Origin: a virus
DNA length: 21,070 nt
Reading direction: 5' to 3' (one strand)
IMG/VR virus record: IMGVR_UViG_3300042350_006479
Location: 1-21,070 of that record
This document shows positions 4,740 to 12,066 of this stretch, in pieces; the first letter of the stretch is position 1; each line of letters begins with the position of its first letter. The notes beneath the pieces are model-generated. The model saw only the letters and a list, made by a program, of their open reading frames with translations, was not told where the DNA came from and ran no database searches. The translations under genes and the position numbers were made by a program.

Positions 4740-5894
4740 ATGACGAACTGGTATGCCTTTCACGCCAAAGCCGAGCAGCGCGAAACCGAAATCTCCATTT
4801 TTGATGAGATCGGCATGTTTGGCGTCTCTGCGAAAAATTTCATCAGCGACCTCAAATCCGTCCCCGACGACCACAAAATCAAACTCCGCATCCACAGCCC
4901 CGGCGGAGAAGTCTTCGACGGAAACGCCATCTTCAACGCTCTGAAGCGCCACCCCGGCGGCGTCGAAGTCCAGATCGAGGGCCTCGCCGCCTCCATGGCC
5001 ACCGTCATCAGCCTCGCCGGTCTCCCGGTCAAAATGGCCGCGAATGGCTTCTACATGATCCACAACCCCTGGGGCGTCGCCATGGGAGATGCCGACGAAC
5101 TCCGCGACCAGGCCCAGCTCCTCGACAAAATCCGCTCCGGCATGGTCTCCGCCTACGCCGCCAAGTCCGGCCAGCCCACCGAGAAGATCGAAGAGTGGAT
5201 GAACGACGAAACCTGGTTCAGCGCCGAGGAAGCCCTCGCCGCCGGGTTCGTGGACGAAGTCACCGACGAAGTCCGCCTCGCCGCCAGCGCCAACCGCTTC
5301 TCCCGCCTCGCCAAATTCAAGCGCCCACCCGCCGCGCTTTTGACACCCGCACCCGCTCAAATGGAAACCGAAATCGAAAACCCCGTCGCCGAGCCCGAGG
5401 TCGCCGCCTCCGTCGTCAGCGAAAACGCCGATCAGCCCACTCCGTCCGATTCGTCCGAGCCCATCCTCGAGCCCGCACCTGAGATTGAGCCCGAGCCACT
5501 CGAGGCCGCCATCGAGCCCCAGCCCGAGATTCCCACCCCCGCCACACCCGTGGCCCACATCGCCGCTGCCGATTCCATCTTGGCAAAATACAACGCCGCC
5601 ATCGCCGAGCGCGATGCCGCCCGCTCCGAGATCATCGCCTATAAAGCCCAGCTCGACACCGTCCGCGCCGAACTCACCTCCGAGCGCGAAGCCCTGCAAC
5701 GCCTCGAGCGCAGCCTCGGCCTCCAGGCCGCCGCCGTCGTCCCGATTATCCAGCCGCAGAGCGACGCCACCTCTGACCCCGTCGCCGAATACCTCGCGGC
5801 ACTCGAGAGCGGCGACCGCAAAGCCGCCTCGAAGCTTTTCGAAAAGCACAAAGCCGCCATCTGGCAGCACCGAAACAAAATTTCCAAGGCCTGA
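4740..5894 (+). CDS. ClpP-like prohead protease fused to scaffold (gpC-like)
   Basis: This 384-residue protein has an N-terminal serine protease domain and a C-terminal scaffold part. Residues 1-190 follow the ClpP/SppA-like phage proteases: RIHSPGGEVFDGNAIFNALK (50-69), nucleophile S85 in GLAASMAT, catalytic H108 in YMIHNPWG, and the DETWFSAEEALAAGFVDEV segment (156-174), whose D156 may be the third catalytic residue. Residues 208-384 are an acidic, Pro-rich linker and a coiled coil. In lambda, gpC has the same plan and the scaffold Nu3 starts inside it. The protease would clear scaffold from the prohead before packaging. It lies between portal and coat genes, as expected. Confidence 0.92.
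   Translation: MTNWYAFHAKAEQRETEISIFDEIGMFGVSAKNFISDLKSVPDDHKIKLRIHSPGGEVFDGNAIFNALKRHPGGVEVQIEGLAASMATVISLAGLPVKMAANGFYMIHNPWGVAMGDADELRDQAQLLDKIRSGMVSAYAAKSGQPTEKIEEWMNDETWFSAEEALAAGFVDEVTDEVRLAASANRFSRLAKFKRPPAALLTPAPAQMETEIENPVAEPEVAASVVSENADQPTPSDSSEPILEPAPEIEPEPLEAAIEPQPEIPTPATPVAHIAAADSILAKYNAAIAERDAARSEIIAYKAQLDTVRAELTSEREALQRLERSLGLQAAAVVPIIQPQSDATSDPVAEYLAALESGDRKAASKLFEKHKAAIWQHRNKISKA
5339..5345 (+). promoter_or_regulatory. Internal TTTGACA box before nested scaffold start
   Basis: The box lies inside the protease reading frame (encoding Leu-Leu-Thr) and ends 15 bases before an in-frame ATG at 5361. Its spacing matches the boxes in front of independent genes. Confidence 0.6.
5361..5894 (+). 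CDS. Nested capsid scaffold protein (Nu3-like, in-frame internal start)
   Basis: Translation from Met208 of the protease gene would give a 177-residue protein identical to its C-terminal part. It begins METEIENPVAEP, is acidic and Pro-rich for about 60 residues, then has a predicted coiled coil (SILAKYNAAIAERDAARSEI onward to about residue 120) and ends in a basic helix, FEKHKAAIWQHRNK. Acidic linker, coiled coil and basic tail are the usual features of scaffolds, which bind coat protein through a basic C-terminal helix. Lambda makes Nu3 from the same kind of internal in-frame start. The start is supported by the TTTGACA box 15 bases upstream; no Shine-Dalgarno sequence is seen. Independent expression is inferred. 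Confidence 0.75.
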   Translation: METEIENPVAEPEVAASVVSENADQPTPSDSSEPILEPAPEIEPEPLEAAIEPQPEIPTPATPVAHIAAADSILAKYNAAIAERDAARSEIIAYKAQLDTVRAELTSEREALQRLERSLGLQAAAVVPIIQPQSDATSDPVAEYLAALESGDRKAASKLFEKHKAAIWQHRNKISKA

Positions 5895-5897
5895 GCC

Positions 5898-5935
5898 AAG
5901 GAGAAACCAACCAACAACCCAACACCAATCCAACA
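5898..5935 (+). promoter_or_regulatory. A/C-only leader of the coat gene
   Basis: An AAGGAG at 5898-5903 is followed by 32 bases (5904-5935) with no G and a single T before the ATG at 5936. The AAGGAG is too far from the start for normal Shine-Dalgarno use. Such an unstructured leader should leave the start open for ribosomes, fitting the need for abundant coat protein. Confidence 0.45.
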
Positions 5936-6787
5936 ATGCCTAATACATTCGACTCCGGCCTGGTTGCGGACTCCATCTCCGCGCAGACCAAAACCGTCCT
6001 GTCCAACCGCCTCGCGGCACTCAACATCTTCGCTTCCGATTTTTCGAGCGATGTCAAGAAGCCCAAGGAAACCGTCGTCGTTCCCATCGTGTCCGCCACA
6101 GCGGCCACCCAGGTGAACCCGACCAACTTCGAGCCCGGCGGCGGCACCACCGTCACCAAGACCACGGTCACCCTTGACCATGTCTATCAGCCCTTCGCCA
6201 TCACCGCGGCGGAACTCGCCCAAGGCCATCGCCTCGAGCGCCTGATCCAGATCAACCTCGACGCCCTCGCGGACAAAATCTGGGCACTCGCCACGGCACC
6301 CATCACCGTTGCCAACTACGGCGCAGCCACGCTCACCTCGGCCGACATCACGCCCACCAATGGCAAACTCGCCGACCTCTGGGCCGCCATCCACAAAAGC
6401 GCTCGCAAGGGCCTCGTGGTCAGCCCGACCATCTACTCGAAGCTCATCCCCACCACAGCCGATTCGCTCCCGCTCTCGGCCGGTGCCTACGGCTTCGACA
6501 ACGGCATCTACTTCGCCTCCAGCTTCGGCGGTGAGGCGGGTCTTGCCGGGTTCGCCTGCTCGCCCGAAGCGGTCGTGATGGCCGCCGCCGCGCCTGCCAT
6601 CGACGACGCCGTCCGCTCGCAGTTCGCGATCTCGGACATCGTCACGCTCGAGCAGATCGGCCTCTCGGTGCAATACAATGTCTGGGGCTCCACAGCCAAC
6701 CGCCAGGTCAACGCCTCGCTCGAAATCATGTTCGGCGCGGCCAAGGGCCTCACCGCGGGCACCATGGCCCTCATCGACATCGCGTAA
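5936..6787 (+). CDS. Major capsid protein
   Basis: This 283-residue protein is the likely coat subunit. It directly follows the protease/scaffold gene, has its own A/C-rich leader and is closed by a strong terminator, all fitting a highly expressed shell protein. The N-terminal part (MPNTFDSGLVADSISAQTKTVLSNRLAALNIF) is helical. The middle reads as alternating strands and a long helix (ITAAELAQGHRLERLIQINLDALADKIW, about 92-120), and the C-terminal half includes KGLVVSPTIYSKLIP and IVTLEQIGLSVQYNVWGS. This agrees with an HK97-fold coat protein in outline, but I see no diagnostic motif. No separate decoration protein gene lies between scaffold and coat, unlike lambda gpD. Confidence 0.87.
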   Translation: MPNTFDSGLVADSISAQTKTVLSNRLAALNIFASDFSSDVKKPKETVVVPIVSATAATQVNPTNFEPGGGTTVTKTTVTLDHVYQPFAITAAELAQGHRLERLIQINLDALADKIWALATAPITVANYGAATLTSADITPTNGKLADLWAAIHKSARKGLVVSPTIYSKLIPTTADSLPLSAGAYGFDNGIYFASSFGGEAGLAGFACSPEAVVMAAAAPAIDDAVRSQFAISDIVTLEQIGLSVQYNVWGSTANRQVNASLEIMFGAAKGLTAGTMALIDIA

Positions 6788-6813
6788 TCACAAGGAACAG
6801 AAACGCTGCAACA

Positions 6814-6859
6814 AAAACGCCCGCCGGTGCTCACTCCCGGCGGGCGTTTTCTTTTTTTT
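6814..6859 (+). terminator. Intrinsic terminator after the coat gene
   Basis: A perfect 14-base-pair stem (6814-6827 with 6837-6850) and a 9-base loop are followed after one base by eight T residues (6852-6859). This is a textbook rho-independent terminator. It starts 27 bases after the coat stop and separates the head genes from the tRNA block. The last T residues also form the start of the next TTTGACA box. Confidence 0.92.
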
Positions 6860-6933
6860 GACACGCCCCCGAGGTCGTCTGTGTTCATGCGCGCCCGGCG
6901 GGTTTTTTGTCATATGTTTCCCCGCCGGGCGCC
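6856..6933 (+). repeat. Hairpin repeat module, copy A (left of tRNA)
   Basis: The module begins TTTTGACAC, has GAGGTCGTC at 6871-6879 and an ATG at 6887. It ends in a perfect 12-base-pair hairpin (6891-6902 with 6921-6932) with an 18-base T-rich loop. A 21-codon reading frame from the ATG is probably not a gene. Copy B, on the other side of the tRNA, shares the same order and the same offset from TTTTGACAC to GAGGTCGTC. Confidence 0.7.
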
Positions 6934-6942
6934 AACTCCAAC

Positions 6943-7015
6943 CGCAGGATAGACAAGCTGGCTAAGTTACCGGGCCCATACCCCGGAGACGCGGGTTAGA
7001 CTCCCGCTCCTGCTA
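6943..7015 (+). tRNA. tRNA with CAU anticodon, initiator-like features
   Basis: The 73 bases fold into a full cloverleaf. There is an acceptor stem of six pairs with a C1 x T72 mismatch, and T8. The D arm has A14, G15, G18, G19 and A21 in place. The anticodon stem is CCGGG/CCCGG with the 7-base loop 6975-6981 and anticodon CAT at 6977-6979. A 4-base variable loop ends in C48 (G15-C48 possible), the T stem is GCGGG/CCCGC, and the discriminator is A73; CCA is not encoded. Initiator-type marks are the open 1:72 pair, three G:C pairs at 29-31:39-41 and A11:U24. Odd points are C33 instead of U33 and A56 instead of C56 in the T loop. Elongator Met or lysidine-modified Ile remain possible, as does a decayed gene. 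Confidence 0.75.
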
Positions 7016-7097
7016 TTTTGACACCACCTCGAGGTCGTCGTCAGTTCGATGTTCGATAAGCGCCCGGCGGCTTTTCTGCTTGTCCCCGCCGGGCGCC
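7016..7097 (+). repeat. Hairpin repeat module, copy B (right of tRNA)
   Basis: It begins TTTTGACAC directly after the tRNA discriminator base and has GAGGTCGTC at 7031-7039 and an ATG at 7049. It ends in a perfect 11-base-pair hairpin (7060-7070 with 7086-7096) whose arms match those of copy A. A T7 run (7108-7114) follows 11 bases later, too far for a typical terminator. Confidence 0.7.
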
Positions 7098-7111
7098 ACT
7101 GCCCCTGTTTT

Positions 7112-7118
7112 TTTGACA
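7112..7118 (+). promoter_or_regulatory. TTTGACA box before head completion gene
   Basis: The box ends 13 bases before the GTG at 7132. A hairpin, CAGGCG (7127-7132) with CGCCTG (7136-7141), places the start codon at its tip. Confidence 0.5.
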
Positions 7119-7131
7119 CCCGCCATCAGGC

Positions 7132-7455
7132 GTGTCGCCTGAGTCCCGCAACGCCTTCGCCCTCCGCGCCGCCCAGGCGGCCAATGCCGTCCACGGCATC
7201 CCCGTCACATTCCGCGGCCAGGAAATCAAAGTCTGCCTCGCCCCCATAGCCATCGGCCTCGACCTCGACACCGGCGGCCTCCGCCAAGGCGGCGAATTCA
7301 AGTGCCGCTTCTTGGCCAGCACCCTCGACTCCGCCCCCCGCCGCGGCGAGCCCGTCCTCTACAACGCCCGCACCTACCTCGTCACCGAAGTAAGCCAGCC
7401 CGCCAACATGACCGGCGAGCATGTCGTCACCCTCACCCCTGGCTCCGCACAATGA
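7132..7455 (+). CDS. Head completion / stopper protein candidate (gpFII-like)
   Basis: This 107-residue protein starts at GTG; the start is chosen because it is 13 bases after a TTTGACA box. After a helical N-terminus (RNAFALRAAQAANAVHG) the rest reads as beta strands. The segment APRRGEPVLYNARTYLVTEVSQ resembles in pattern the lambda gpFII region with RRGD followed by a strand ending in V-D-R-V, and the lengths agree (gpFII is about 117 residues). gpFII plugs the portal side of the filled head and binds the tail. Position after the coat gene and before the neck genes supports this role. The similarity is weak by eye, so a generic head-tail connector is the safe name. Its stop overlaps the next start as ATGA. 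Confidence 0.6.
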   Translation: MSPESRNAFALRAAQAANAVHGIPVTFRGQEIKVCLAPIAIGLDLDTGGLRQGGEFKCRFLASTLDSAPRRGEPVLYNARTYLVTEVSQPANMTGEHVVTLTPGSAQ

Positions 7456-10464: not shown

Positions 10465-12066
10465 ATGGCCGAACTCAAAGCCAAAATCACCGCCGACACC
10501 TCCGGCCTCAACGCTGCGCTGAAAAAAGCGCAGTCCGGCGTCGCCGCCCTCAAGCCCGCCATGGTCGGCGTCGCCGCCGCCGGTGCCGCCGCCTTCGCCG
10601 CTCTCGGCGTCGCCGCCGCAGGCGTCAAGAGAGCTCTCGACCTCGGCGGCGACCTCGCCGATGTCGCCGACCAGACAGGACTTACCACCGGTCGCGTGAT
10701 GGTTTTGCGCGAAGCTTTCAACCTCGCCGGACTTGGAGCCGAGTCTCTCGGCCCAACAATCAACAAAATGCAACGCAGCCTGGCTGAAGCCGCGCAAGGC
10801 ACAGGCCCGGCCGCCGATGCTTTTGCTCGTCTGGGGCTCTCCGCCGGTGATCTTGTCAACATGTCTCCCGATCAAGCACTGAGCGCCATTGGCTCCGCGA
10901 TCAACGGCATTGCCAACCCCACCGAGCGCGCCGCTACGGCAATGGATATCTTTGGTAAATCCGGCGGCAAACTTCTCACATTGTTTGCCGACAGCGGCAT
11001 CATGGGCGCGGCGGGGGATATCATCGGAGGGCAAGCCGGGATCATGGAAAAAAACGCTGCGGTTTTTGCCCGCACCTCCGATCTCATCAATGCGTCGTCG
11101 AATAAACTTCAAGGCGTCTTTGTCGGCATGGCCGAATCCATCGCCCCGGCGATCCTGCCGCTCCTCGAGCAATTCAATAAGATGGATTTCACCGCGCTCG
11201 GCCAGCAGATCGGATCCGCAGCCGCCATGTTCATCCAAGCCATGACCGATGGCTCCATTTGGTCCATCATCGGCGACAGCCTCAAGATTTCTCTGGGCAA
11301 CGCCGCCAATTTCCTTTTCCGCTCCCTCTCCGGCATCATCACCTCCGTCGCCCGCCTCATTCCCGAGATCATTCAAAACGCCGTCACCCTCTTCGGCATC
11401 GTCACCAAGGCCGATTTCTGGAAAGGTATGCTCCAAGCCCTCCTCGGAGCCGCCCAGGCATTCGGTGCCAAGCTTCTTGGCATCATGGCCGAGTCCCTTG
11501 GTCTGTTCTCTCGCATTCCCGGCCTCGCCGGAATGCTCGAAGCTCCGATGGAAGCCGTGCGATCCGCCAGCGAATCCATGCAAGGCCAGGCCGACCAAAA
11601 CCTCGCCGCCGGCGGAGACACGCTCACTCCATTTTTTAACCAAGCCCGCGAGCGAATCGAGTCCTCTCTCGCTGCCGCAGGCCAAGGCTTCATGGAAGGA
11701 TTCGACGGCGCAGGCGATGTCTTCGACCTCTCCGGCGTCCAAGCCAACCTCGACGGCACCTTCGACCGCCTCGGTAACACCGTCGAATCCCTCAAGGCCC
11801 AAGCCCAAGCCGCGCTTCCCGCCCCGAACACCGGCGGCCTCGCCACGGCCTTCGGCGCGATGGAAGAACGCACCGGAGCCGGTGGAGCCGCAGGCAAAGC
11901 CACCAACCAGCCCCTCTTCGCCTCCAGCCTCGCCAAGATCGGCGGCGGCGGCGGCATCGCAGGCGGCCCCACCGCCCTCCTCGACGAAAACCGCCGCCAA
12001 ACCCAATTCCTCCGCCGCATCGCCGAAGGCATTTCCAAACTCAACCCCACCCCGCTCCTCGCTTAA
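10465..12066 (+). CDS. Tail tape measure protein
   Basis: This 533-residue protein sets tail length and leaves the tail during DNA entry. The N-terminus (ELKAKITADTSGLNAALKKAQSGV) and the segment up to ATAMDIFGKSGGKLLTLF (about 151-168) are typical of phage tape measure proteins. A hydrophobic Ala/Gly/Val stretch at about 33-56 could span or perturb a membrane. The middle is helical with further hydrophobic patches (about 265-330), and the C-terminus has a Gly-rich hinge (IGGGGGIAGGP) and a final basic helix. The usual rule of about 1.5 angstroms per residue predicts a tail near 80 nm. It directly follows the chaperone region, as in lambda (gene H). Confidence 0.93.
   Translation: MAELKAKITADTSGLNAALKKAQSGVAALKPAMVGVAAAGAAAFAALGVAAAGVKRALDLGGDLADVADQTGLTTGRVMVLREAFNLAGLGAESLGPTINKMQRSLAEAAQGTGPAADAFARLGLSAGDLVNMSPDQALSAIGSAINGIANPTERAATAMDIFGKSGGKLLTLFADSGIMGAAGDIIGGQAGIMEKNAAVFARTSDLINASSNKLQGVFVGMAESIAPAILPLLEQFNKMDFTALGQQIGSAAAMFIQAMTDGSIWSIIGDSLKISLGNAANFLFRSLSGIITSVARLIPEIIQNAVTLFGIVTKADFWKGMLQALLGAAQAFGAKLLGIMAESLGLFSRIPGLAGMLEAPMEAVRSASESMQGQADQNLAAGGDTLTPFFNQARERIESSLAAAGQGFMEGFDGAGDVFDLSGVQANLDGTFDRLGNTVESLKAQAQAALPAPNTGGLATAFGAMEERTGAGGAAGKATNQPLFASSLAKIGGGGGIAGGPTALLDENRRQTQFLRRIAEGISKLNPTPLLA

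Follow-up and report, generated by a model that had tools for sequence, protein, structure and literature searches.

Why should a phage carry, just behind its capsid gene and ahead of the following head-module gene, a tRNA with the marks of an initiator? The usual explanations of phage tRNAs are codon supply or escape from nucleases that cut elongator tRNAs, and codon supply within genes cannot account for an initiator tRNA. The question is raised by an IMG/VR virus record of 21,070 bases, the whole of which was analysed and is called the window here.

The tRNA gene and its setting

PHROG matches in the window identify a lambda-type terminase, a portal and a ClpP-like head protease. The product of the capsid gene that follows has no PHROG or Pfam match, and that of the next head-module gene has no family match; the 344-base region between these two genes has no close DNA relatives among named phage genomes. 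The host is probably a bacterium of the Verrucomicrobiota, because the closest capsid protein in a cellular genome (89% identical) is encoded on a Chthoniobacter MAG contig and the closest terminase from a named phage is that of an Akkermansia phage.

The sole tRNA found in the window by ARAGORN is tRNA-Met(cat), at 6943-7015 on the plus strand. It gives a full-length match to Rfam RF00005 (49.9 bits against a cut-off of 29, E 3.4e-8), from whose alignment the tRNA positions are numbered. An earlier, sequence-only reading of this DNA had described a complete tRNA(CAU) cloverleaf with three initiator marks within the virion gene cluster. ARAGORN, Rfam and the base numbering agree on the cloverleaf and its marks, and the gene does lie in the virion cluster, with the capsid gene before it and the next head gene after it (Table 1).

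Table 1. Positions of the tRNA, its neighbours and nearby elements in the window
Feature	Position	Strand	Basis or remark
TTTGACA, 13-22 nt before starts	87, 2812, 3106, 4716, 7112, 7846, 16439		
Major capsid protein gene, 283 aa	5936..6787	+	placed by position behind head protease
Terminator-like hairpin (6814-6850) and T-run, behind capsid gene	6814..6859	+	fold -26.9 kcal/mol, z -4.5
TTTTGACAC, copy 1	6856..6864	+	sequence
Strong hairpin just upstream of tRNA, perfect 12-bp arms	6891..6932	+	fold -29.7 kcal/mol, z -4.6
Initiator-type tRNA(CAU) gene, CCA not encoded	6943..7015	+	ARAGORN, Rfam RF00005, homologs
Anticodon stem, 5' strand CCGGG (C27C28G29G30G31)	6970..6974	+	pairs with C39-G43, 6982-6986
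Anticodon loop C32 C33 C34 A35 U36 A37 C38 (CCCAUAC)	6975..6981	+	sequence
A56 in T-loop UUAGACU	6998	+	costs G19:C56 tertiary pair
TTTTGACAC, copy 2, immediately 3' of tRNA	7016..7024	+	sequence
GCGCCCGGCGG hairpin, second copy (first: 6891-6932)	7060..7098	+	in window and L066
TTTTGACAC, copy 3, just before GTG start of next gene	7111..7119	+	sequence
Next head-module gene, 107 aa, GTG start	7132..7455	+	adjoins cassette in L370 too

Initiator identity

The first of the three marks is a mismatch of C1 (6943) with U72 (7014), which leaves 1:72 unpaired, an identity mark for formylation; the others are the pair A11 (6953):U24 (6967) and three G:C pairs, G29-31:C39-41. The tRNA also carries G2:C71 and C3:G70, and its discriminator is A73 (7015). 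All three marks together are found in none of the 1031 distinct non-CAU tRNAs among the 1359 distinct tRNAs parsed from the collected loci. Two odd bases had been read correctly in the earlier account, C33 (6976) in place of the near-universal U33 and A56 in place of the near-universal C56. Four further features had passed without remark there: C38 (hosts have A38), the missing CCA, A9 and an A13·A22 mismatch.

Folding of the single strand recovers the cloverleaf only in part (z -1.4 to -2.2), as is usual for tRNAs. The sequence-only reading had named a pseudogene score or an Ile2 assignment by covariance models as outcomes that would refute it; neither a pseudogene score nor Ile2 features were found. 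A model built from host initiators scores the window tRNA at 50.1 bits, a host Ile2-like tRNA at 53.1 and an elongator tRNA-Met at 53.0; it gives no separation from elongators, so the initiator class rests on the identity marks.

Comparison with the host initiator, which had been proposed earlier, brings out shared features. Of 145 Verrucomicrobiota genomes, 128 have an initiator whose anticodon stem is AGG/CCU (A29:U41), and a GGG/CCC pattern matches in none because the phylum has A29:U41; a looser pattern gave only chance matches, in 4 of 96 genomes. The initiators of this phylum (L337-L366) depart from the textbook set of three G:C pairs, one of which is replaced by A29:U41. Where the whole sequence was read, they show U1·U72 (U1:A72 in one case), A11:U24, U33 and A38. 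The window tRNA resembles them in its CAU anticodon, its 1:72 mismatch with U72, G2:C71, C3:G70, A11:U24, A73 and a strong lower anticodon stem. It differs in having C33 and C38 where the host has U33 and A38, and in its D-arm, A4:U69, variable loop of 4, unencoded CCA and G29:C41 in place of A29:U41. Two homologs of the window tRNA, in viral contigs L002 and L370, have A29:U41 and thus carry the stem type of the host phylum; this change at 29:41, with A:U there instead of the G:C of the window, is compensatory.

The pattern of change among related phage tRNAs is more telling. A pattern scan that fixed G2, C3, G5, G6, A11, two lower G:C pairs and the loop CCCAUAC, and left positions 1, 22-25, 27-29, 41-43, 49-65 and 66-72 free, gave 50 viral matches that reduce to 15 distinct sequences. 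At 4:69, 7:66, 12:23, 27:43, 28:42, 29:41, 49:65, 50:64 and 51:63 both partners vary, yet pairing is kept in all 15, and U24, which the scan left free, is constant throughout. Positions 1:72 are unpaired in 14 of the 15 although both bases vary (the forms are CU, CA, UU, UA, AG and AA, of which one, found in one sequence, pairs). One mismatch kept in an otherwise paired acceptor is what formylation identity would demand, and its persistence amid covarying stems is the strongest evidence that this tRNA family functions as an initiator. By this measure, initiator identity is conserved across the related phage tRNAs. Taken together, the identity marks and the covariation give good support to the assignment of the window tRNA as a phage-encoded initiator, of the tRNA-fMet type.

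Bases 33 and 38 and a possible role

Almost all bacterial tRNAs have U33. Initiator-type tRNAs with C33 were nevertheless found in 84 viral stretches, unrelated phages included; the named phages D3 and Donnerlittchen are among them. C33 and C38 occur together in 50 viral stretches, and C38 with U33 in 57. The frequency of C33 could be counted fully in a viral subset chosen regardless of base 33 (GGG stem, A38, GGATAGA), which holds 8 distinct sequences with C33 and 42 with U33. Among host initiators, C33 was seen in 1 of 128 Verrucomicrobiota genomes and in 1 of 60 Pseudomonadota genomes, the latter on the phage-like contig L071. The viral proportion (8/50) differs from that in Verrucomicrobiota (1/128) with a Fisher p of 0.0002 and from that in Pseudomonadota without L071 (0/59) with a p of 0.001, related sequences being treated as independent in both tests. 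When 145 Verrucomicrobiota genomes were scanned with an exact pattern for C38, the one hit was a chance match inside an open frame.

Two of the cellular records deserve separate mention. At 6880-6953 of L367 (genome G085) there is a chromosomal host initiator with C33, beside genes that read, from their open frames, as smpB-like and queA-like; C33 is therefore possible in a cell's own initiator tRNA. L071, filed under a Burkholderiaceae MAG, carries at 5190-6032 a capsid gene of the window's phage group (67%) and at 10568-10644 another initiator-type tRNA with C33, and probably represents a phage contig that was assigned to the MAG in binning.

The sequence-only reading had left it undecided whether the odd bases mark a specialised or a decaying tRNA. 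For C33 and C38 the answer appears to be specialisation rather than decay, because both are common to the homologs of the tRNA in related contigs and recur in unrelated phages. The possibility of decay is left with A56. Because every homolog has C56 and G9, A56 and A9 belong to the window copy alone. A56 could reflect a mutation, the onset of decay or an error, and it may weaken the window tRNA. A literature search for phage initiator tRNAs with C33 found nothing direct, but most subscription papers lay outside its coverage and prior reports may exist.

What such a loop might be good for is suggested by toxins that cut initiator tRNA. As summarised in one paper, an enteric VapC cuts tRNA-fMet between A38 and C39 (PMC4105405, citing Winther and Gerdes 2011), and a leptospiral VapC cuts initiator tRNA too (PMC4105405). 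C38 of the window tRNA borders the bond equivalent to the enteric A38/C39 cut. The reading that we favour, with a little less than even confidence, is that of a late-made phage initiator tRNA whose C33/C38 loop may escape host anticodon nucleases. The tRNA would be transcribed late with the capsid operon and trimmed by host enzymes; the host would have to add CCA, since none is encoded. It would then be charged by MetRS and formylated, and IF2 and the ribosome would use it to start phage proteins when translation capacity is most needed. In a weaker step, C33 and C38, at or near the 38/39 bond, would shield the phage tRNA from nucleases that remove the host's own initiator. Such a copy may sustain protein synthesis where the host tRNA is cut or in short supply. 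The late supply of a working initiator is thus the core of the proposal; nuclease escape, its weaker extension, is plausible. Candidate nucleases exist: 18 of 39 Verrucomicrobiota genomes have PIN-domain genes, and the Chthoniobacter MAG that bears the nearest capsid relative has eight such genes. Two points count against escape: many phage initiator-type tRNAs retain U33 and A38, and we know of no nuclease in this host that cuts tRNA-fMet.

One alternative, possible but less probable, takes the tRNA as a functional initiator that merely enlarges the late initiator pool, with C33 and C38 as tolerated drift and no nuclease involved. The conserved initiator marks and the adjoining capsid gene would suit it, and the chromosomal initiator of G085 argues that C33 is tolerated. 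C33 is also found in 29 of the 1031 non-CAU tRNAs of the collected loci, which shows that initiators are not its only carriers, though it is commoner in them. It counts against drift that hosts show C33 and C38 far less often than do the initiator-type tRNAs of phages.

A possibly recombining cassette, its placement and known systems

A search with the capsid protein gave 64 viral loci, and the same tRNA cassette is present in five other viral contigs (L002, L066, L067, L068 and L370). In all six it is preceded by the major capsid gene and followed by the same head gene. The capsid of L002 is 98% identical to that of the window, while L066, L067, L068 and L370 have a different protein of 301 aa (for L370, an alignment of 299 positions with the window capsid shows 24% identity), so that two unrelated capsid genes stand upstream of one cassette. 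C33 and C38 are common to all of its copies. In most capsid relatives, even at 77-84% capsid identity, there is no tRNA at the site, where only the hairpin, TTTTGACA and the next gene are kept, and the whole records L003 and L004 have no tRNA anywhere. The tRNA is thus dispensable in this group, which counts against the reading favoured here.

The intergenic region is built of units bounded by TTTTGACAC at 6856, 7016 and 7111, a sequence that occurs five times in the window against 0.04 expected. Among the window, L066, L002, L067 and L068, the units so bounded (a hairpin unit and a tRNA unit) are duplicated or swapped; L002, L067 and L068 lack the second copy of the GCGCCCGGCGG hairpin. This, together with the presence of the cassette behind two unrelated capsid genes, suggests recombination at the TTTTGACAC repeats. 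Such a region could carry along a passenger or decaying tRNA, a reading in keeping with the bounding repeats, the duplicated hairpin unit, A56 in the window copy and the many relatives that have no tRNA. It is nonetheless improbable, given that the homologs are intact, that the change at 29:41 is compensatory and that the 1:72 mismatch persists while other pairs covary.

Expression is a difficulty for the initiator reading. A search for a sigma-70-like promoter for the tRNA found none, and the terminator-like hairpin stands between the capsid gene and the tRNA. Both count against late transcription with the capsid operon; because of the hairpin, expression would need read-through or an unrecognised promoter. 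(Rfam matches to STnc310 and ar14 at 6727-6862 were discarded: they lie below the gathering score and stem from the GC-rich terminator hairpin.) The position between two hairpins in an intergenic region of the head operon might also suggest that the tRNA is a processing signal, at which RNase P and 3' cleavage would cut the late transcript behind the capsid gene, with decoding secondary. This is very unlikely, since such a signal would have no need of the 1:72 mismatch, U24 and anticodon, which are conserved (the anticodon, like A11, having been fixed by the scan).

Two further readings can be put aside. That the tRNA is an Ile2 (AUA-reading) or elongator Met tRNA, initiator-like by chance, draws on the CAU anticodon and the lack of separation by the host-initiator model, but is highly improbable: all three initiator marks are present, and the window tRNA has neither the paired 1:72 and elongator D-stem of tRNA-Ile2 (host L086 and L097) nor the paired 1:72 and C11:G24 of elongator tRNA-Met (host L099 and L315), host Ile2-like and elongator Met tRNAs having a paired 1:72 and C11:G24. 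Although temperate phages often integrate in tRNA genes, the idea that a host tRNA end has been retained as an attachment site was rejected as the least credible of all, since the 3' half differs from that of the host initiator and the gene lies inside the head module.

The earlier account had also tied the tRNA to a motif, TTTGACA, ahead of start codons. The motif is real: 7 of its 11 copies in the window precede start codons that open at least 90 codons, and across twelve relatives 38 of 58 do so, at distances of 8-26 nt (most often 13), against 0-5 for control motifs with other letter orders. It is not placed likewise in host loci. The tie to the tRNA is not supported: TTTGACA is equally present in relatives without the tRNA and so gives no ground for a joint initiation system. 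TTTGACA was also considered as part of a sigma-70 promoter and rejected for its spacing, because the start codon occupies the place of the -10 box.

Nor does the placement seem as unusual as first supposed. Of 30 lone phage initiator-type lineages, 13 have terminase, portal, protease or capsid genes as neighbours, while 3 adjoin tail genes; this count is a lead and not a test, because no lone elongator phage tRNAs served as a control and the check covered neighbours from about 190 aa upwards. An initiator-type tRNA separates terminase from portal in L402. tRNAs with the CCCAUAC loop lie beside a phrog_3437 capsid gene in L386, beside a phrog_10 capsid gene and protease in L390, and about 430-660 bases from a phrog_334 capsid gene in L381 and L398. 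The clade of L368 and L386, to which most of L368-L413 belong, consists of widespread, near-identical phage contigs whose tRNA has C1·A72, C33 and C38 and adjoins the phrog_3437 capsid gene. In L381 (12803-12874) and L398 (3063-3134) the T-loops read TGCAAGT or TGCAACT, with G55 in place of U55, in tRNAs that are otherwise intact. The general proposal, that many phages, from different phyla, carry a lone, late initiator tRNA in the packaging and head module, with bases 33 and 38 changed repeatedly in escape from host toxins that halt infection through cleavage of initiator tRNA, is for now a doubtful one. The recurrent class defined by the 1:72 mismatch, C33 and C38, often near capsid, portal or terminase genes, does suggest that translation initiation itself is something that phages protect or strengthen. 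Bases 33 and 38 are exact points that can now be tested against toxins that cut tRNA-fMet, and the class bears on what the bacterial ribosome accepts at position 33 of an initiator.

Compared with known systems, the window tRNA is like those of the L368/L386 clade, L390, L381 and L398 in its CCCAUAC loop, mismatched 1:72 and nearby capsid gene, but the capsid families differ (phrog_3437, phrog_10 and phrog_334), as do the D-arms of L386 and L390. The tRNA-Met of Pseudomonas phage D3 (AF165214, L103) shares C1·U72, A11:U24, the GGG/CCC stem and C33 with that of the window; unlike it, the D3 tRNA keeps A38, has an encoded CCA and has three other tRNA genes nearby. A parallel in argument is that of van den Berg et al. 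(2023), who proposed that phage tRNAs escape nucleases through loop changes (PMC10264068). In their work, phages are said generally to avoid encoding tRNA-fMet where VapC-LT2 cuts (PMC10264068); the present survey shows that phages do encode initiator tRNAs, some of them altered in the loop at and near the scissile bond. The tRNAs that they treat are mainly those of mycobacteriophages, unlike that of the window, with which they have in common loop changes near nuclease cleavage sites (PMC10264068).
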